Source: Blautia argi (GTDB taxonomy: Bacteria > Bacillota > Clostridia > Lachnospirales > Lachnospiraceae). Taken from it: a stretch of DNA of 64,000 nt. The notes under the pieces were generated by a model, which was not told the DNA's origin, made no database searches, and saw only the letters and a program-made list of their open reading frames with translations. Where the stretch lies: positions 1,309,501 through 1,373,500 of the forward strand of contig NZ_CP030280.1 of NCBI RefSeq assembly GCF_003287895.1. Direction: 5' to 3'. Shown in pieces: positions 22,209-62,095 of the stretch; positions within the stretch are counted from its first letter, which is position 1; each line of letters opens with the position of its first letter. The translations under genes were made by a program, and so were the position numbers.

Positions 22209-22702
22209 GAGAAAAATCACAGCTTACAACTCTGTGTTATATTGAAACCTCGGAAAAATACCTGATGCTGCACAGAGTTTCAAAGAAAAATGATGTAAAC
22301 AAGGATAAGTGGATTGGTGTAGGAGGACATTTTGAAGAAAATGAAAGTCCGGAGGACTGTCTTTTGAGAGAAGTGTGGGAGGAAACGGGGCTGAAGCTTA
22401 TCTCCTACCGCTTCCGAGGGCTTGTAACCTTTCATTTTGAAAAGGCAGACAAAAGTTTTTCGGAAACAGAGTATATGTGCCTGTACACAGCCGATGGCTA
22501 TGAAGGAGAGCTGACGGAGTGTAATGAGGGTGTGCTGGAATGGGTGGATAAAAAAGAACTGTCCAACCTGAAGCTTTGGGAAGGGGATAAAATCTTCTTT
22601 CGCCTTTTAGAGGAGAATCGCCCCTTCTTTTCCTTAAAGCTTTCTTATGTAGAGGACGAACTGAAAGAGGCGGTTTTAGATGGAAGAGCATTGGATTTAT
22701 GA
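22205..22702 (+). CDS. NUDIX hydrolase (MutT/8-oxo-dGTP type), TTG start
   Basis: Pyrophosphohydrolase of 165 residues. The complete Nudix box is present: GGHFEENESPEDCLLREVWEE followed by TG, with all catalytic glutamates. The N-terminal MLHRVSKKNDVNKDKWIGVG pattern is common in the 8-oxo-dGTP diphosphatase group. It starts at TTG 22205 in a 4-base TTGA overlap with rng and overlaps the next gene by 23 bases, so it is coupled in one operon. Substrate is inferred, not shown. Confidence 0.88.
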   Translation: MREKSQLTTLCYIETSEKYLMLHRVSKKNDVNKDKWIGVGGHFEENESPEDCLLREVWEETGLKLISYRFRGLVTFHFEKADKSFSETEYMCLYTADGYEGELTECNEGVLEWVDKKELSNLKLWEGDKIFFRLLEENRPFFSLKLSYVEDELKEAVLDGRALDL

Positions 22703-53350: not shown

Positions 53351-54649
53351 ATGAATTACGAAGAAGCAAGAGTATATTTGGACGAGATTTCCAAATACGG
53401 AAGTGTACTTGGCTTGGAGAATATGAGAGAGCTGCTGGTCAGACTCGGCAATCCCCAGGAGGATTTAAAGTTTATTCACATTTCCGGAACAAATGGGAAA
53501 GGGTCTGTGCTGGCATATCTTTCAACAATACTGTCCGGCGCGGGATATCGCACAGGAAGATACATATCCCCTACACTGTTTTCTTATCGAGAGAGGATTC
53601 AGGTCGATGAGAAAGAAATTGAAAAAGATGCGCTTGCCCGTCATGTTACAGCAATTTCACAGGCTGTAAAGGACATGGAAGAGCGCCATGCAGGAACCCC
53701 TACGCTTTTTGAAGTGGAAACTGCGTTGGCTTTTCTCTATTTTAGAGAGAAAAATTGTGATGTGGTAGTGTTGGAAACCGGGCTTGGAGGAGCCTTAGAT
53801 GCAACCAATGTGATTACCACCACGCTTTTGGAGGTCATTGCTTCCATTAGTATGGATCATATGGAATTTCTGGGAAATACACTGGGAGAAATTGCTGTCC
53901 AGAAAGCCGGTATTATCAAACCTCATACCCAGGTGGTCAGTGCCTGTCAGAAGGAAGAGGCAGCAAGAGTGATTGAAGAAGCCTGCAAGGCACGGGAATG
54001 TTCTTTGCGAACCGTCAGGGAAAATCGAATTACAGAGGTTTCCTACGGACTGGGAGAACAGCGATTTACCTATGGAAAATGGAAAGAGGTGGTAATTTCG
54101 CTTTCCGGAAGCTATCAGGTGAAAAACGCAGCGCTGGCTCTTGAGGCAGTGGAGGCTTTACGGAAACTGGGCTTTTCCCTTTCTGATGCGCAGGTCTATG
54201 CGGGAATGAAAAAGGCCTGCTGGAGAGGCAGATTTACGTGGGTTGCAAAGGAACCGGACGTGATTATTGACGGCGCCCATAATCCTGCGGCAGCCCTGGA
54301 ATTGCAGCGTTCCATAGAGTTATATTTTAAAGGGAAAAATTTGTATTATGTTTTTGGTGTGTTTAGGGATAAGGATTATCAGAAGATTATTGAACTGACA
54401 GCGCCTTATGCAAAACACATTATAACCGTGGAAACACCGGGAAATCCAAGAGCGTTGCCGGCAAAGGAGCTGTGTGCAGCCGTGAAAAAAGTCAATCCGT
54501 CAGCAGAGGCGGCAGACAGTGTTACAGCAGCGGTAAAAAAGAGTCTGGAGTATGCAGGGAAAGACGATGCAGTGATTATTTTTGGTTCTCTGTCCTTCTT
54601 AAAGGACGCAGTAAATGCAATTTCAGGTGAGGGTAAAGAAAATGAATAA
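53351..54649 (+). CDS. folC: folylpolyglutamate/dihydrofolate synthase
   Basis: Adds glutamate to dihydropteroate and extends folate polyglutamate tails, 432 residues. The ATP-binding P-loop is [15 protein letters not shown]; further landmarks are [28 protein letters not shown] and the C-terminal domain with [21 protein letters not shown] precedes the ATG. First gene of the folate operon; its end overlaps folE by 8 bases. Confidence 0.95.
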
Positions 54650-55214
54650 GAATAAAATGGATAAAGAAAAAATTGAACAGGGTGTAAGACTGATTCTGGA
54701 GGGAATCGGAGAGGATATTAACAGGGAGGGGCTTCTGGAAACTCCGGATCGGATTGCCAGAATGTATAAAGAACTGGCAGCAGGCTATACCGATGATGCG
54801 GCAAAGCATCTGAAAAAAAGGTTTCATGTAGATAATAATGATATGGTTCTGGAAAAGGATATTCACTTTTATTCCTTCTGTGAACATCATATGCTGCCTT
54901 TCTATGGTACAGCAGCCATTGCCTATATTCCAAACGGTGAGGTTGTGGGATTGAGTAAAATGGCGAGAACGGTAGAGGTTTTTGCAAAGCGTTTTCAGCT
55001 TCAGGAGCGTCTGACTGCTCAGGTGGCAGATGCTTTTATGGAGGAGTTAAATCCCCAGGGTGTTATGGTGCTGATTGAGGCAGAACATATGTGTATGACC
55101 ATGCGTGGCATTAAAAAGCCGGGGACAAAGACGGTAACTGTTGTGACAAGAGGTGTGTTTGATGACAACGAGAGCTTGCAGAACACCTTTTATCGTATGC
55201 TGGAAAGACGGTAA
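54642..55214 (+). CDS. folE: GTP cyclohydrolase I
   Basis: Converts GTP to 7,8-dihydroneopterin triphosphate, the first step of pterin synthesis; 190 residues. The zinc and active-site motifs [11 protein letters not shown] and [12 protein letters not shown] are intact, as is the [20 protein letters not shown] core. The frame is open to 54615; the ATG at 54642 with GGTGAGGG upstream is the family start. The next gene starts 2 bases after the stop. Confidence 0.96.
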
Positions 55215-55216
55215 GT

Positions 55217-55699
55217 ATGGAACGGGTCAATAAAATCTGCGAACATAAGCTTTGGAAACAGGCTGTAGAAGAGATTTCTCAGTTAGAGGAAAAGCGGGTG
55301 TTCTGCAGACACAATACAGAGCATTTTCTGGACGTGGCGCGACTTGCCTATATTGAAAATCTGGAAAAAGGGCTGGGAATAGAGAAAGAACTTCTCTATG
55401 CAGCAGCGCTTTTGCATGATATTGGCAGAGTTTTGGAATATACCGAGCAGATTCCACATGATAAGGGCAGTGTGCTTCTGGCTGAAAAAATTTTGCCGGA
55501 ATGCGGCTTTACCAAGGAAGAGGAGAGAGAAATTCTGGCAGCGATTTCCAGCCACAGAAAAGCCGATATTCTGTCAGAAAATTCTTTATCCGGGCTTTTA
55601 TATCGTGCAGATAAAAAGTCCAGAGCCTGTCTTTTTTGCAAAGCGCAGGGAACGTGCAAGTGGAGTACAGAAAAGAAAAATCTTACCTTAGAGGTGTAA
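55217..55699 (+). CDS. HD-domain hydrolase embedded in the folate operon
   Basis: Product of 160 residues. HD-domain metal ligands are visible: FCRHNTEHFLDVAR (His), ALLHDIGRVLEY (HD), ISSHRKAD and YRADKKSR (Asp). A cysteine-containing tail CLFCKAQGTCKW follows. It sits exactly between folE and folP with 2- and 18-base gaps, so it is almost certainly cotranslated with the pathway. The pathway needs a phosphatase for dihydroneopterin triphosphate and no folQ/Nudix gene is in the operon. The archaeal HD enzyme MptB acts on a pterin phosphate. A role in this step is therefore an attractive inference, not shown. Confidence 0.8.
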   Translation: MERVNKICEHKLWKQAVEEISQLEEKRVFCRHNTEHFLDVARLAYIENLEKGLGIEKELLYAAALLHDIGRVLEYTEQIPHDKGSVLLAEKILPECGFTKEEEREILAAISSHRKADILSENSLSGLLYRADKKSRACLFCKAQGTCKWSTEKKNLTLEV

Positions 55700-55717
55700 G
55701 CACAGGAGGAAGTTTGT

Positions 55718-56533
55718 ATGATGAAAATCGGAAACCGTATGTTTGACGTGGAGCATGACTGTTCTGTTATGGGGATTCTCAATGTAACCCCGGATTCTTT
55801 CTCAGACGGCGGAAAATGGAATGATATAGAAAAGGCAAAAAAACATACAGCAGATATGATTGCAGAGGGCGCGTCTATTATTGATATCGGCGGAGAATCT
55901 ACCCGTCCCGGACATGTCCAGATTTCCATTCAGGAGGAAATCGACCGGGTTGTTCCAATGATTGAAATGGTGAAAAGGGAGTTTGATATTCCGGTGTCCA
56001 TTGACAGCTACAAGGGCGATGTGGTAGAGGCAGCCCTGAAAGCGGGAGCAGACCTTGTAAATGATATCTGGGGGCTGAAATATGACGAGAGAGTGGCAGA
56101 ACTGATTGCCCGGTATCAGGTGCCTTGTTGTCTGATGCACAATAGGGAAAAAGCCGAATACGATAATTTCTTAGATGATTTGTGTCAGGATATGCGGGAT
56201 TCTCTTGCCATTGCAAAAAAAGCAGGGATTGCAGATGACAAAATTATTTTAGACCCGGGTGTGGGCTTTGGAAAAACTTACGAGCATAATCTCATAATCA
56301 TTCATCATCTGGAGCGCCTGGCAGAACTGGGATATCCTGTTTTACTGGCTACTTCCAGAAAATCTGTAATTGGAACCGCACTGGATTTGCCTTCTGATGA
56401 GAGAGTGGAAGGAACAATAGTGACTACGGTTTTGGGTGTTCAGAAAAAGGCGGCGTTTGTCCGTGTACATGATGTAAAAGAAAATCTGAGAGCCATTCGC
56501 ATGACGCAGGCCATTTTAAGAGAAGGGAAGTAA
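55718..56533 (+). CDS. folP: dihydropteroate synthase
   Basis: Condenses 6-hydroxymethyl-dihydropterin pyrophosphate with p-aminobenzoate; target of sulfonamides. The 271-residue TIM barrel shows GILNVTPDSFSDGG, DIGGESTRPG, VSIDSYKGDV and DPGVGFGKTYEHNL. AGGAGGAAGTTTGT before the ATG at 55718 gives good spacing. It is followed by folBK after 3 bases. Confidence 0.96.
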   Translation: MMKIGNRMFDVEHDCSVMGILNVTPDSFSDGGKWNDIEKAKKHTADMIAEGASIIDIGGESTRPGHVQISIQEEIDRVVPMIEMVKREFDIPVSIDSYKGDVVEAALKAGADLVNDIWGLKYDERVAELIARYQVPCCLMHNREKAEYDNFLDDLCQDMRDSLAIAKKAGIADDKIILDPGVGFGKTYEHNLIIIHHLERLAELGYPVLLATSRKSVIGTALDLPSDERVEGTIVTTVLGVQKKAAFVRVHDVKENLRAIRMTQAILREGK

Positions 56534-56536
56534 GCC

Positions 56537-57382
56537 ATGAGAAATCTGCCATACGATGAAATTCACGTTGAAAATCTGGAGGTCTTCGCCAATCATGGCG
56601 TATTTCCGGAAGAAACCAGTCTGGGACAGAAATTTGTGATTTCCCTTACCATGTATACCAATACCAGAAAAGCAGGAAAAAGCGACTGCCTGGAAGAATC
56701 CGTACATTACGGAGAAGTCAGCAGTTTTATGACTGCCTATACAAAGGAACACCCCCGTAAGTTGATTGAGGCGGCAGCAGAGGATTTGGCGGAAGAGGTT
56801 TTGCTTCATTATCCCCTTTTAAAAGGCGTGACTCTGGAACTGAAAAAGCCGTGGGCGCCGGTGGGACTTCCTCTGGAAACGGTTTCCGTAAAGGTAACCC
56901 GCTTCTGGCACACAGCTTACTTGGGACTTGGATCCAATCTGGGAGATAAAGAGGGCTATCTGAATCAGGCAATCAAAGAATTGGATAACGGAAGGGACTG
57001 TCAGGTGGAAAAAGTTTCTCCTTATCTGGTGACAGAGCCATACGGCGGCGTAGAGCAGGACGATTTCTTAAATGCTTGTCTGCGGCTGAAAACCCTGCTT
57101 TCTCCCCATGAACTGCTGGACAGACTTCATGAGATTGAGCAGCATGCACACAGAGAACGGTTGATTCACTGGGGTCCCAGAACTCTGGATCTGGATATTC
57201 TTCTGTATGATGATGAAATTCTGGAAACAGAGGATTTGGTTATTCCTCATGTAGAGATGCCTCTTCGGGATTTTGTTTTAAAACCTATGTGTGACATTGC
57301 TCCTTATAAGAGGCACCCGCTGCTTGGAAAAACTATGATGCAGCTTTTAAAGGAACTGGAACAAAAGGATTGCTATGAATGA
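56537..57382 (+). CDS. folK: bifunctional dihydroneopterin aldolase / HPPK (FolB-FolK fusion)
   Basis: Two folate enzymes in one chain of 281 residues. The FolB domain covers about 1-120 (ENLEVFANHGVFPEE, VHYGEVSSF, aldolase lysine region LELKKPWAP). FolK covers about 125-281 (AYLGLGSNLGDK, TEPYGGVEQDDFLN, RTLDLDILLYDDE, IPHVEMPLRDFVL). It cleaves dihydroneopterin and pyrophosphorylates the product for FolP. The fusion is common in Firmicutes. Its last 8 bases overlap the following response regulator gene. Confidence 0.95.
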   Translation: MRNLPYDEIHVENLEVFANHGVFPEETSLGQKFVISLTMYTNTRKAGKSDCLEESVHYGEVSSFMTAYTKEHPRKLIEAAAEDLAEEVLLHYPLLKGVTLELKKPWAPVGLPLETVSVKVTRFWHTAYLGLGSNLGDKEGYLNQAIKELDNGRDCQVEKVSPYLVTEPYGGVEQDDFLNACLRLKTLLSPHELLDRLHEIEQHAHRERLIHWGPRTLDLDILLYDDEILETEDLVIPHVEMPLRDFVLKPMCDIAPYKRHPLLGKTMMQLLKELEQKDCYE

Positions 57383-58073
57383 CAGAATATTAATTGCAGA
57401 TGATGAACAGGAAATTGCAGATTTAATAGAGGTATATTTACAGAATGAGGGCTTTCGGGTGCTGAAATTTTATGATGCTCAGGAAGCTCTTTCCTGTATT
57501 GAAAAAGAGCCTGTGGACTTGGCAGTTCTGGACATTATGATGCCGGGAATCAGCGGTCTGACTCTGTGCCGGAAAATACGGGAAAAGTACCATTATCCCA
57601 TTATTATGCTTACAGCAAAGGGAGAGGAAATGGATAAAATCAATGGGCTGGCGTTGGGGGCTGATGATTATATGACAAAGCCCTTTCTGCCGCTGGAACT
57701 GGTGGCGAGGATTAAAGCGCAGCTTCGCAGATACAAGCGCTATAACAGCCCGTCCGTTCAGGAAACTGAGGAGGTGCTGACCCACAAGGGACTGGTACTG
57801 AATAAGAAAACCAGGGAATGCATTTTAAATGAACGTCCCTTATCGCTAACACCTACAGAATTTGAAATTCTGGCGTTTCTCTGCGAGAAAAAAGGGGAAG
57901 TTGTCAGTTCTGAGGAATTGTTTCATCATATCTGGAAGGACGAATATTACAGTAAAAATAATAATACCATTACGGTTCATATTCGGCATTTGAGAGAAAA
58001 GATGCAGGATTCCTTTGAAAAACCCAAGTATATCAAAACAGTCTGGGGGTGTGGATATAAGCTTGAAAGCTAA
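57375..58073 (+). CDS. VanR-like response regulator
   Basis: OmpR-family regulator of 232 residues: ILIADDEQEIADLIEVYLQN, phospho-acceptor in LAVLDIMMPGISG, lysine in DDYMTKPFLPLE, and a winged helix (LTPTEFEILAFLCEKKG, TVHIRHLREKMQD, TVWGCGYKL). It closely follows the VanR consensus. It overlaps folBK by 8 bases and so appears to be cotranscribed with folate genes. No vanHAX-type genes follow; the output candidate is the carboxypeptidase at 59.3 kb. Confidence 0.9.
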   Translation: MNDRILIADDEQEIADLIEVYLQNEGFRVLKFYDAQEALSCIEKEPVDLAVLDIMMPGISGLTLCRKIREKYHYPIIMLTAKGEEMDKINGLALGADDYMTKPFLPLELVARIKAQLRRYKRYNSPSVQETEEVLTHKGLVLNKKTRECILNERPLSLTPTEFEILAFLCEKKGEVVSSEELFHHIWKDEYYSKNNNTITVHIRHLREKMQDSFEKPKYIKTVWGCGYKLES

Positions 58074-59205
58074 ACGTGTTTTCTATCTGAAGTTGTTGTT
58101 GGCAGGTATTTTGGTGCCTTTGGTTTGTTATGCTTTGAACTATTTTGCAGATGTATTTTTAAATGGCGTTTTTGTAGACTGGTTTTCTCATCAGTTTGTT
58201 TATGAACAGACGATTTACAATGAAGAGGGAGGACTGGCCTATGTGGAACAGTCTATTGACTGGAAGGCTTTGAAGGCGTTTCTCGGAAAGGCCAGTCTGC
58301 TTTTCGCGTGGATTTTTGTATTTTCTCTGATAGGAGCTTTTCATTTGGGCGGAAAAAGAAGGGCGCAGAAGGTTATTAAAGAGGCAGGAGAAAAGTTGCA
58401 TCAGTATATGCACAGCGAGCTTGAGGCAGAAGAGATTTTTCCGCCGGAGTATGCACAAATCAGTACCAGAATGGTGCAGATAAAGGCAGATATCGAAAAA
58501 AAAGAGCAAAGCCTGAAAGACGAAGCACGGAAGAAAAGTGATTTGATCGCCTATCTGGCTCATGATTTGAAGACGCCGCTGACCTCTGTGCTTGGATATC
58601 TGACCCTTCTGAAGGAAGCGCCGGATATGTCTGCGGTACAAAGAGAGAAGTATGTTCACATTGCCTGTGATAAGGCAGAGCGTCTGGACAGTCTGATTGA
58701 AGAATTTTTTGAAATTACCCGCTATAATCTGCAGGAAATGATACTGGAAAAGGAGGAGCTGGACGTATCCTATATGATGATGCAGATGACAGAAGAATTT
58801 TATCCCCTTTTGTCAGCGAAAAACAATACGGTTCGTCTGGAACTCCCTCAGGAGCTTACCGTGTATGCAGACCCTCAAAAGCTGGCGCGTGTGTTTAATA
58901 ACCTGTTAAAAAATGCCATTGCCTACAGTTATCCAGATACAGAGATTGTAGTAAGGGGAGAACAGCAGGAAAATCAGGTGGTGATCTCCTTTGAAGATTA
59001 CGGAAAAACCATTCCCAGACAAAAGTTGGATTTGATTTTTCAGAAGTTTTTCCGCATGGACGAGGCGCGGAAAAGCAATACCGGGGGAGCAGGTCTTGGT
59101 CTTGCCATTGCAAAGGAAATTGCCGAGCTTCATGGAGGAACGATTACAGCAGAAAGCCAACAGGAGAAAACGGTTTTTCAGGTTATACTTCCGGGAAAAT
59201 CTTAA
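58063..59205 (+). CDS. VanS-like sensor histidine kinase
   Basis: Kinase of about 380 residues with two transmembrane helices (about 10-30 and 82-102) and a roughly 50-residue extracytoplasmic loop. A HAMP-like linker, H-box LAHDLKTPLTSVLGYL, N-box NNLLKNAIAYS and G-box GGAGLGLAIAK follow. Start choice is uncertain: TTG at 58063 follows GGGGGTG at reasonable spacing, while GTG 58051 and ATG 58015 are also in frame. It overlaps the regulator. The ligand is unknown; VanS relatives sense cell-wall antibiotics or precursors. Confidence 0.88.
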   Translation: MKAKRVFYLKLLLAGILVPLVCYALNYFADVFLNGVFVDWFSHQFVYEQTIYNEEGGLAYVEQSIDWKALKAFLGKASLLFAWIFVFSLIGAFHLGGKRRAQKVIKEAGEKLHQYMHSELEAEEIFPPEYAQISTRMVQIKADIEKKEQSLKDEARKKSDLIAYLAHDLKTPLTSVLGYLTLLKEAPDMSAVQREKYVHIACDKAERLDSLIEEFFEITRYNLQEMILEKEELDVSYMMMQMTEEFYPLLSAKNNTVRLELPQELTVYADPQKLARVFNNLLKNAIAYSYPDTEIVVRGEQQENQVVISFEDYGKTIPRQKLDLIFQKFFRMDEARKSNTGGAGLGLAIAKEIAELHGGTITAESQQEKTVFQVILPGKS

Positions 59206-59314
59206 GATAAAATTAGGAAATAAAAAAGAGAATTTTAAAAGACCTTTCTTTTTGATTTGCTATATTTAAGTACACATAAAAGCTGTACAGGCAAAAGAAA
59301 AGGAAGGTATTTTT

Positions 59315-60265
59315 ATGCAGAAAAAACGAAGAAGAAAAAGAAGAAAACATATTTTATGGGGATTTCTCCTATTTTTGACCATTGCTTATGGGCTGCTTGC
59401 AGGAGTTACCTGGGTAGGCGGATATTTTGGAAAGAAATTTAGCAGTCTGGAAACTTCCATAGGAAAACCGGAAATAGAGCTAAATAAGCTGAACAGCAAA
59501 GCAGCAATTTTGAGGGAACTGGACAGCGGAAAAGTTTTGGGAAGAAAAGAAGAAGACAAAAGGATTTATCCCGCATCTCTCACGAAAATAATGACTGTTG
59601 TTCTGGCTATGGAAAAGCTGGGAAATCTGGAACATACAACAGTTCTTGAGAGTGATATATTTCCTGAATTATATGCAGAGGGCGCTTCTATGGCAGGGTT
59701 TGCCCCTGGGGACCAGGTGTCCTACAGGGATTTGTTTTATGGTGCAATGCTGCCCTCAGGAGCAGAGTGCTGTGAAGCTCTGGCAAGGGTTTGCGAAGGA
59801 ACTGAGGCAGCATTTGCAGAAAGCATGAATGAGAAGGCAGAGGAATTGGAAATGAAGCACACGCATTTTACCAATGCCACAGGGTTGCATAATAAAAATC
59901 ATTATACAACAGCAGAGGATTTGTCCCGGCTCTTATCTTATGCACTGAAAAATCCGGAGTTTTACGAAATTTTCACCTCAAAGAGCCATACCATGGCGCC
60001 AACAACCTCACAGCCGGGAGGATTCACTGTGTACAGTACCATGGGACAGGAAATGGAAAGAAATCAGATAACAGAGGAGGGGATTTTGGGAGGTAAAACA
60101 GGATATACCTCACAGGCAGGTCTTTGTCTTGGAAGTCTTATAAGTATAAATGGAAAGAAGTATATCCTGATAACAGCAGGGGCGTCGGGCACTCATGACA
60201 CAGAGCCAAAACATATTCTGGATGCAGCAGAAGTCTGCGAACAGTTAAGAAATACCTGTTTATAA
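59315..60265 (+). CDS. D-alanyl-D-alanine carboxypeptidase (S11/DacA family)
   Basis: Penicillin-binding-type serine peptidase that trims the terminal D-Ala of peptidoglycan stems, 316 residues. An N-terminal membrane anchor (about 12-35) follows a very basic start. The active-site motifs are SLTK (PASLTKIMTVV), SGA in MLPSGAECCEAL in place of SGN, and KTG in ILGGKTGYTS. It lacks the C-terminal domain of classical DacA. Its position after VanRS-like genes suggests induced remodelling that lowers D-Ala-D-Ala targets. AAAAGGAAGG precedes the ATG. Confidence 0.9.
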   Translation: MQKKRRRKRRKHILWGFLLFLTIAYGLLAGVTWVGGYFGKKFSSLETSIGKPEIELNKLNSKAAILRELDSGKVLGRKEEDKRIYPASLTKIMTVVLAMEKLGNLEHTTVLESDIFPELYAEGASMAGFAPGDQVSYRDLFYGAMLPSGAECCEALARVCEGTEAAFAESMNEKAEELEMKHTHFTNATGLHNKNHYTTAEDLSRLLSYALKNPEFYEIFTSKSHTMAPTTSQPGGFTVYSTMGQEMERNQITEEGILGGKTGYTSQAGLCLGSLISINGKKYILITAGASGTHDTEPKHILDAAEVCEQLRNTCL

Positions 60266-60404: not shown

Positions 60405-60443
60405 ATGATAAGAGTAAGCAAACAGAAAAGGAGCCTGAATTAC

Positions 60444-61205
60444 ATGGACAAAAAAGAGTTGCAAAATTTGCTGGAGCAGGTAGCTGAGGGACAGGTAAAA
60501 CCAGAGGCTGCCCTGCTGCAGATAAAGACAGAACCTTATAAAGATATGGGATTTGCCAAGCTGGACACACACCGGGGTATCCGTCAGGGTATGGCAGAGG
60601 TTATTTATGGTGCAGGAAAGACCAAGGAACAGATTGTAAAAATTGCCCAGGCTATGGTAGAAGAAAAAGAAAAGACCGTGTTGATTACCAGAATGAGCAA
60701 AGAGGCGGCAGACTATGTAGGGGAATTTTTGGACTTGCATTATGATGAAATTTCCAGAACCGGTATGGTAGGGCAGATTCCCAAGCCGGACGGCGTGGGA
60801 AAAATCGTCGTGGCAACCGGAGGAACCAGCGACATGGCTGTAGCAGAGGAAGCAGCCCTGACTGCAGAGGTGTACGGTAATGAAGTGGTACGCCTCTATG
60901 ATGTAGGTGTTGCAGGCATGCACAGGCTTATGGATCATATTGAAGAGATTATGAGCGCCAGAGTCATTGTGGCTATTGCAGGTATGGAAGGGGCGCTTGC
61001 CAGTGTGATTGGCGGCATGGCAGACTGTCCAGTGATTGCAGTACCAACCAGCGTGGGATACGGGGCAAACTTTGGGGGTCTGTCTGCACTTCTGTCTATG
61101 CTCAATTCCTGTGCCAGCGGCGTCAGTGTAGTAAATATTGACAATGGTTTTGGAGCAGGATATCTGGCGAGTATGATTAACCATCTGGAGGGCAGGAAGG
61201 AATGA
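60444..61205 (+). CDS. larB: LarB, nickel pincer cofactor biosynthesis
   Basis: Carboxylates and hydrolyses nicotinic acid adenine dinucleotide, the first step to the nickel-pincer nucleotide of lactate racemase-type enzymes. The 253-residue product has the PurE-like segment VVATGGTSDMAVAEEAALTA, DVGVAGMHRLMDH and PTSVGYGANFGG. The ATG at 60444 follows AAAGGAG; the frame is open to 60405. It overlaps larC by 4 bases. larA and larE are not in the window. Confidence 0.94.
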   Translation: MDKKELQNLLEQVAEGQVKPEAALLQIKTEPYKDMGFAKLDTHRGIRQGMAEVIYGAGKTKEQIVKIAQAMVEEKEKTVLITRMSKEAADYVGEFLDLHYDEISRTGMVGQIPKPDGVGKIVVATGGTSDMAVAEEAALTAEVYGNEVVRLYDVGVAGMHRLMDHIEEIMSARVIVAIAGMEGALASVIGGMADCPVIAVPTSVGYGANFGGLSALLSMLNSCASGVSVVNIDNGFGAGYLASMINHLEGRKE

Positions 61206-62095
61206 AGACCTTATATTTAGAATGTAATATGGGAGCAGCCGGAGATATGCTTATGGGTGCGCTTCTGGAATTGCTTTCCCCAAAAGAAAAAGAAGAATTT
61301 TTAGAAGAATTGAATCATGCCGGGATTCCCCATCTAAAGGTAACGGCAGAGCCGTCAGTAAAGTGTGGTATTACAGGAACCCATATGCGTGTGAGCATTC
61401 ATGGGGAAGAAGAGGAAAGTCTGGATATAGAAAAAGAAGTAGAAGCTTTTCACAGTTATGAGCAGGAGAAGGAGAGAGAAAGAGGTGAGCATGCTCACAC
61501 GCAAGCGCACATTCACTCCCATGAGCCGCATGCACATGGGGATTCGCTTTTTCATTCTCATGTCCACCATACGCATCACCATGCAGGTATGAAGGATATT
61601 GCGGAACAGATAGAAGCATTGAACCTGAACCCGGCGGTGAAGGCGGATATCAGAAATATTTATCATATCATAGCCCAGGCAGAAGGTCAGGTGCACGGCT
61701 GTGAGATTAAAGACATACATTTTCATGAGGTTGGGACTGCGGACGCATTGGCTGATATTACAGGCTGCGCCATGCTGTTTCACAAGCTGGGAGCAACTCA
61801 GGTTTTGGTATCGCCTGTGACTACGGGCTTTGGACAGGTTCGCTGCGCCCATGGAATTCTTCCTGTGCCTGCGCCAGCTACTGCCAGAATTCTGGAAGGT
61901 ATTCCATGCAGCGCAGGCAGAATCGAGGGAGAATTGTGTACGCCTACCGGTGCGGCGATTCTCAGATACTATGCTTCTGCTTATGGAAGAATGCAGGAAA
62001 TGAAGATGGAAAAAATCGGATATGGAATGGGAAAAAAGGATTTTCCGGCAGCCAACTGTGTCCGGGCAGTTTTCGGTGACGCACCTGCTGTTTGA
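61202..62095 (+). CDS. larC: LarC, nickel insertion protein, N-terminal part only
   Basis: Installs nickel in the pincer cofactor using CTP. The 297 residues correspond to the LarC1 half: YLECNMGAAGDMLMGAL, a histidine-rich metal-binding linker (about 95-128, with HIHSHEPHAH and HVHHTHHHAG), IHFHEVGTADALADI, CAHGILPVPAPATARIL and CTPTGAAIL. It stops right after GYGMGKKDFPAANCVRAVFG. The LarC2 region that binds CTP in characterised proteins (full length about 400) is absent, and no frame downstream encodes it before the next promoter. Either LarC2 is encoded elsewhere or the protein is truncated. Confidence 0.88.
   Translation: MKTLYLECNMGAAGDMLMGALLELLSPKEKEEFLEELNHAGIPHLKVTAEPSVKCGITGTHMRVSIHGEEEESLDIEKEVEAFHSYEQEKERERGEHAHTQAHIHSHEPHAHGDSLFHSHVHHTHHHAGMKDIAEQIEALNLNPAVKADIRNIYHIIAQAEGQVHGCEIKDIHFHEVGTADALADITGCAMLFHKLGATQVLVSPVTTGFGQVRCAHGILPVPAPATARILEGIPCSAGRIEGELCTPTGAAILRYYASAYGRMQEMKMEKIGYGMGKKDFPAANCVRAVFGDAPAV

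Follow-up and report, generated by a model that had tools for sequence, protein, structure and literature searches.

The closest described counterparts of the gene considered here are the FolQ2 proteins, a name given in 2007 by de Crecy-Lagard et al. to HDIG proteins encoded in folate gene clusters, such as CPE1020 of Clostridium perfringens, and proposed as alternatives to FolQ (PMC1971073). In that survey the second pterin step still had no assigned gene for most bacterial genomes, and its Table 2 marks FolQ2 'Prediction not experimentally verified' (PMC1971073). A 2019 reconstruction of vitamin synthesis in gut genomes uses FolQ, FolQ1 and FolQ2 (PMC6593275). We found no experimental assay of FolQ2 in the open-access literature (PMC), a scope that mostly excludes subscription papers, and the available text of PMC5041015 contains nothing on dephosphorylation of dihydroneopterin triphosphate (DHNTP). 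Here we analyse a 160-residue HD-domain protein encoded in a folate operon of Blautia argi, within a 64,000-nucleotide stretch (the window, to which positions refer) of its single-contig, 3.3-Mb genome.

There is good support for placing this protein in the pterin branch of folate synthesis: the gene is linked to fol genes, co-occurs with folK and appears fused to folC in some relatives. On balance, we predict that it is a FolQ2-type pterin-phosphate hydrolase; its identity as a DHNTP phosphohydrolase is plausible. Interpreting it as the missing FolQ is not new: this repeats the 2007 FolQ2 prediction, which is supported here at the pathway level. Like the described FolQ2 proteins, it has an HD/HDIG domain and lies within a folate gene cluster, as in clostridia. 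This placement was made by domain, gene context and other Clostridium proteins rather than by the sequence of CPE1020 itself, and proteins of C. paraputrificum, C. vincentii, C. carnis, C. tertium and C. sartagoforme have the same combination of HD residues and four cysteines.

Linkage of the HD gene to folate synthesis

Open reading frame (ORF) calling and Pfam matches place the HD gene (55217..55699) between folE and folP in a tight run on the forward strand, with the order folC-folE-HD-folP-folBK. The neighbours are folC (53351..54649; Mur_ligase_C and Mur_ligase_M), folE, for GTP cyclohydrolase I (54639..55214; PF01227, 254 bits), folP, for dihydropteroate synthase (55718..56533; PF00809 (Pterin_bind), 266.9 bits), and a folBK fusion combining FolB and HPPK (56537..57382; PF02152 and PF01288, with TIGR00525 and TIGR01498 above cut-off). 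Two nucleotides separate the end of folE from the HD start, and 18 separate the HD stop from the folP start, with AGGAGG at 55704-55709, 8 nt upstream of the latter. Membership of the operon is thus directly observed. Pfam recognized neither a Nudix gene nor a DHNTP phosphohydrolase gene among the operon genes. The layout therefore agrees with a first-pass annotation of this DNA, which had described an HD ORF between folE and folP, in an operon encoding FolC, FolE, FolP and FolBK with nothing to dephosphorylate DHNTP.

The HD gene also follows folate synthesis across genomes. In a phylum sample of 249 genomes, 63 were HD-positive, defined by a match of at least 80 bits; the next separate gene scored 55.6 bits. 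folK was present in 191 genomes, including all 63 HD-positive ones, and HD was found in none of the 58 folK-less genomes (p 5e-9; co-occurrence p values here ignore common descent). Coordinates for folK were available in 55 of the 63 HD-positive genomes, and HD/folK coordinate pairing and folE counts were done by hand. In a family sample of 150 genomes, HD was found in 70, 69 of them with folK; the HD match of the remaining genome (G273) lies at a contig end.

Gene neighbourhoods gave a similar result, as HD lay among fol genes, mostly next to folP, in 39 of the 40 HD loci fetched. One locus (L110) has HD about 3 kb beyond folE, and at the fortieth (L147) the 7.7 kb examined of a 15.2-kb contig contain no fol gene. 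The gene fhs (formate-tetrahydrofolate ligase, recognized by eye) was nearby in 19 of 40 HD loci, compared with 4 of 80 HD-negative loci, and is also named in the legend of the FolQ2 cluster figure (PMC1971073). FolC and HD share one continuous frame at L183:7156-9000 (minus strand, 615 aa) and L184:3801-5582 (plus strand, 594 aa), which may be natural FolC-HD fusions. A third, partial case on a short contig (P0081) joins the FolC C terminus to HD.

The predicted metal site and known HD enzymes

The HD protein matches PF01966 (E 2.3e-11, 44.4 bits, cut-off 22) and, just above threshold, TIGR00277 (HDIG; 28.1 bits, cut-off 27.6), with no Nudix family among its Pfam and NCBIfam matches at E<=0.1. 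An AlphaFold2 model built from 54 sequences predicts an HD fold (pLDDT 96.0, pTM 0.91). Of the 3565 candidates in a protein search, 3459 were relatives at E<=0.001 (120 of them listed), so the gene is not a chance ORF. The nearest of three named relatives, from Blautia hansenii, is 73% identical, in a comparison that may omit the records most similar to that of the window.

Conservation was assessed in an alignment of 54 sequences: the window protein, three named genome loci, 11 of the 120 listed proteins and 39 loci of the phylum sample. Invariant in all 54 are E24, C30, H32, H36, R42, Y61, H67, D68, H81, H113, D132, R136, C138, C141 and C147. These include the first HD metal His, H36 (55322..55324), the HD doublet H67-D68 (55415..55420), the two extra His of a dinuclear set, H81 (55457..55459) and H113 (55553..55555), and the last metal ligand of the HD site, D132 (55610..55612). 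H32 (55310..55312) lies four residues ahead of H36, and C30 (55304..55306) is just N-terminal to the metal-site helix. A CxxC...C tail, reported in the first-pass annotation, is present in every sequence as C138-x2-C141-x5-C147 (55628..55657), and C30 adds a fourth invariant Cys. This conservation suggests that the four cysteines together bind a metal, either as Zn or as an Fe-S centre. L147, which has Ala in place of C147, was excluded from this alignment and belongs to a 41-row alignment with C147 in 40 of 41. Among separate phylum genes scoring below 56 bits, all except two matches end by profile position 137, ahead of the tail cysteines; the tail therefore marks the folate-linked group. 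Neither the four-Cys site nor FolC fusions are mentioned in the available parts of PMC1971073, and both would offer testable handles on the family.

According to a review, the six-ligand set H..HD..H..H..D is the hallmark of a dinuclear HD site and occurs in YqeK, an iron-type HD enzyme (PMC8177086). All six residues are present in 54 of 54 sequences. Polynuclear HD phosphodiesterases, including HD-GYP proteins, have an extra adjacent His (H..HD..H..HH..D), and HD phosphatases have a conserved Arg whose usual place is three residues ahead of the first metal His (PMC8177086). Neither feature marks this family: the residue after H113 is Arg in 52 of 54 sequences (His and Ser once each), and position 33 is Asp, Asn, Gly, Thr or Glu in 53 of 54; Arg is found nine residues upstream of H36 (R27) in 49 of 54.

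YpgQ, an HD nucleotide pyrophosphohydrolase, uses H25, four residues before H29, to contact phosphate (PMC8177086). The same pattern, H..HD..D (H36, H67, D68 and D132) with H32 four residues earlier, is found in all 54 sequences, so that the H32/H36 spacing equals that of H25/H29 in YpgQ (5dqv, 5dqw). The resemblance is one of fold, from a fold search, and the window protein exceeds the cut-off of no named NCBIfam equivalog. YpgQ is described as a mononuclear Mn enzyme, whereas the family studied here has an invariant dinuclear set and four cysteines. When aligned with this family, the HD protein of an uncultured Thermotogales bacterium (PDB 2pq7; function uncharacterised) has Pro in place of C30. 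YqeK and MptB are absent from the fold-search matches listed, an absence with no power to exclude either. FolQ and NudB, the Nudix DHNTP pyrophosphohydrolases, act at the pathway step proposed here but have an unrelated fold, and the window protein has no Nudix domain.

MptB, the archaeal dihydroneopterin cyclic phosphodiesterase, is also an HD protein. The first-pass annotation had cited it as a precedent for HD chemistry on pterin phosphates, and this holds in so far as its substrate is a dihydroneopterin phosphate, on which it acts in an Fe2+-dependent manner according to the title of a cited reference. It acts, however, on the cyclic phosphate produced by MptA (PMC3087415), which is not what FolE makes; MptB was set against the window protein by description only. 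By analogy, YpgQ is the closer precedent for FolQ chemistry, because it is a pyrophosphohydrolase with matching His spacing and the substrate of MptB is not made by FolE.

The preferred model is of a small metal-dependent HD hydrolase that would dephosphorylate the pterin product of FolE, most likely by converting 7,8-dihydroneopterin triphosphate to the monophosphate and pyrophosphate. Two metals would be held by H36, H67, D68, H81, H113 and D132, and H32 would hold the phosphates in the manner of YpgQ H25; we infer metals, substrate and products alike from such comparisons. A more ambitious version of this model takes its cue from OxsA, an HD enzyme that removes phosphates stepwise from its nucleoside triphosphate (PMC8177086). 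One dinuclear enzyme might strip DHNTP fully to dihydroneopterin, replacing both FolQ and the 'non-specific phosphatase' of textbook schemes, with an Fe-S or Zn centre at C30, C138, C141 and C147 through which anaerobes might couple folate synthesis to their redox or metal state; we regard this as a long shot. If the family is the enzyme, the gap at the second pterin step would be closed for many folate-making clostridia, the FolQ2 assignments of gut vitamin models (PMC6593275) would gain support, and a pathway already exploited for drugs would offer a non-Nudix target.

Two other assignments suggested by the HD domain were dropped. A CRISPR Cas3 reading drew on HD-only matches that fell below the NCBIfam cut-off and were weak in PADLOC, and a PhnZ-like oxygenase with a six-ligand diiron site was set aside because the genus Blautia is strictly anaerobic.

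Relatives without the HD gene and alternative roles

Several observations weigh against assigning the DHNTP step to the HD protein. The gene is absent from 27 of 96 folK-positive family genomes, and folE directly adjoins folP in 18 of the 27 HD-negative loci. Three others have folC and folP without folE, and in the remaining six, of which several lie at contig ends, folBK or folK is the only fol gene on that strand. These absences, and the direct folE-folP junctions, weaken the argument from a gap in the operon. Two insertions were seen in the fol run of these loci. In L155 a GNAT acetyltransferase gene separates folP from folBK, and in L165 a tRNA-editing domain protein is encoded after folC and ahead of folE; both were rejected as substitutes, as neither looks like a phosphohydrolase.

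Nor do genome-wide counts point to a replacement. Nudix matches are alike in the 27 HD-negative genomes (187) and in 27 HD-positive ones (203; Mann-Whitney p 0.60), with all Nudix types pooled and FolQ-capable types not separated; the HD-positive set comprised the first 27 genomes listed after B. argi, omitting G273, which has no folK. PTPS proteins, likewise, are found in 7 of 27 HD-negative and 11 of 27 HD-positive family genomes, with no enrichment in the former. In HD-negative relatives, either an unrecognized enzyme substitutes or the step does not strictly need the HD gene, and any FolQ2 prediction must account for them. Of the first-pass proposal that the HD protein fills the missing pterin phosphatase step, the pterin-branch role stands, on linkage, co-occurrence and fusions; the DHNTP step itself is reduced to a plausible assignment.

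Local replacements were sought in gene neighbourhoods. A strict Nudix-box pattern was run over 120 folK or HD loci of the phylum sample, about 1.65 Mb in all (drawn from 80 of 128 HD-negative genomes with folK and from 40 of 63 HD-positive genomes). It matched in none of them, nor in 40 further family loci (27 HD-negative and 13 HD-positive); these are neighbourhoods only, and a diverged Nudix protein could escape a pattern that recovered the four Nudix genes of B. argi as a positive control. A looser pattern gave two matches in the 120 loci, in the FolP ORF of L142 and in a 126-aa ORF, neither of which was counted. A Nudix replacement inside the operon was therefore rejected, as no strict motif occurred in the fetched neighbourhoods. 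A QueD-like PTPS gene lies beside fol genes in 10 of 80 HD-negative phylum loci (L029, L033, L034, L042, L046, L051, L052, L055, L060 and L086) versus 0 of 40 HD loci. All ten read GKCxxLHGH, which we take to be the queuosine-type cysteine form; with this motif in every case and no PTPS enrichment in HD-negative family genomes, a PTPS/QueD bypass was also discarded.

The alternative that survives best, although we consider it unlikely, is that the HD protein is a folate-pathway hydrolase acting on another pterin phosphate, either at the monophosphate step, which is left to an unnamed phosphatase, or in clean-up of a side product such as cyclic dihydroneopterin phosphate. Many genomes would then manage without the gene, as the 27 HD-negative genomes do. 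The H..HD..H..H..D site shared with iron-type enzymes such as YqeK (PMC8177086) and the action of MptB on a cyclic phosphate (PMC3087415) also fit such a role, whereas the Arg that usually follows H113, where polynuclear HD phosphodiesterases have their extra His, and the H32 spacing of YpgQ, a diphosphatase, do not.

An accessory or regulatory protein, in which the four-Cys site senses metal or redox state and tunes FolE, FolC or FolP rather than supplying a step, is improbable. Four invariant cysteines besides the HD site, fusion to the late-acting FolC and absence from the same 27 genomes would suit it, but all six catalytic metal ligands are invariant, which indicates an active enzyme. Least probable is that a Nudix enzyme encoded elsewhere performs the step, as in Lactococcus, while the HD protein acts outside the pterin branch: B. 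argi does have four Nudix genes and HD-negative relatives do retain the pathway, but the HD gene occurs almost exclusively in genomes with folK and is linked to folP or folK, and the strict motif is missing from all the loci above, which has no bearing on the rest of those genomes.

None of the four Nudix genes lies in the fol operon. One is elsewhere in the window (G000:C1:1331723-1332106, about 22223-22606); one of the four passes the NAD diphosphatase model, and the other three fall below every named cut-off.

Additional features of the loci

Within the HD family, a 217-aa protein (P0007) contains a near-exact internal repeat, about 60 residues long and spanning the HD doublet, which is either an assembly error or a real duplication. 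Two FolP frames are also extended. That at L029:5408-6580 begins with about 140 residues covered by no Pfam match, with Pterin_bind starting at residue 140 of 391, and L141:5330-6571 contains a similar frame in a 414-aa ORF.

No Rfam family matched at gathering score between 50000 and 60500 of the window. Downstream of folBK, 57375-60265 encodes a response regulator (PF00072/PF00486), a sensor-kinase-like ORF recognized by eye and a D-alanyl-D-alanine carboxypeptidase (PF00768). These are followed at 60405-62095 by an AIR-carboxylase-like gene (PF00731) and then a nickel insertion protein gene (PF01969), a pair that presumably corresponds to larB/larC.
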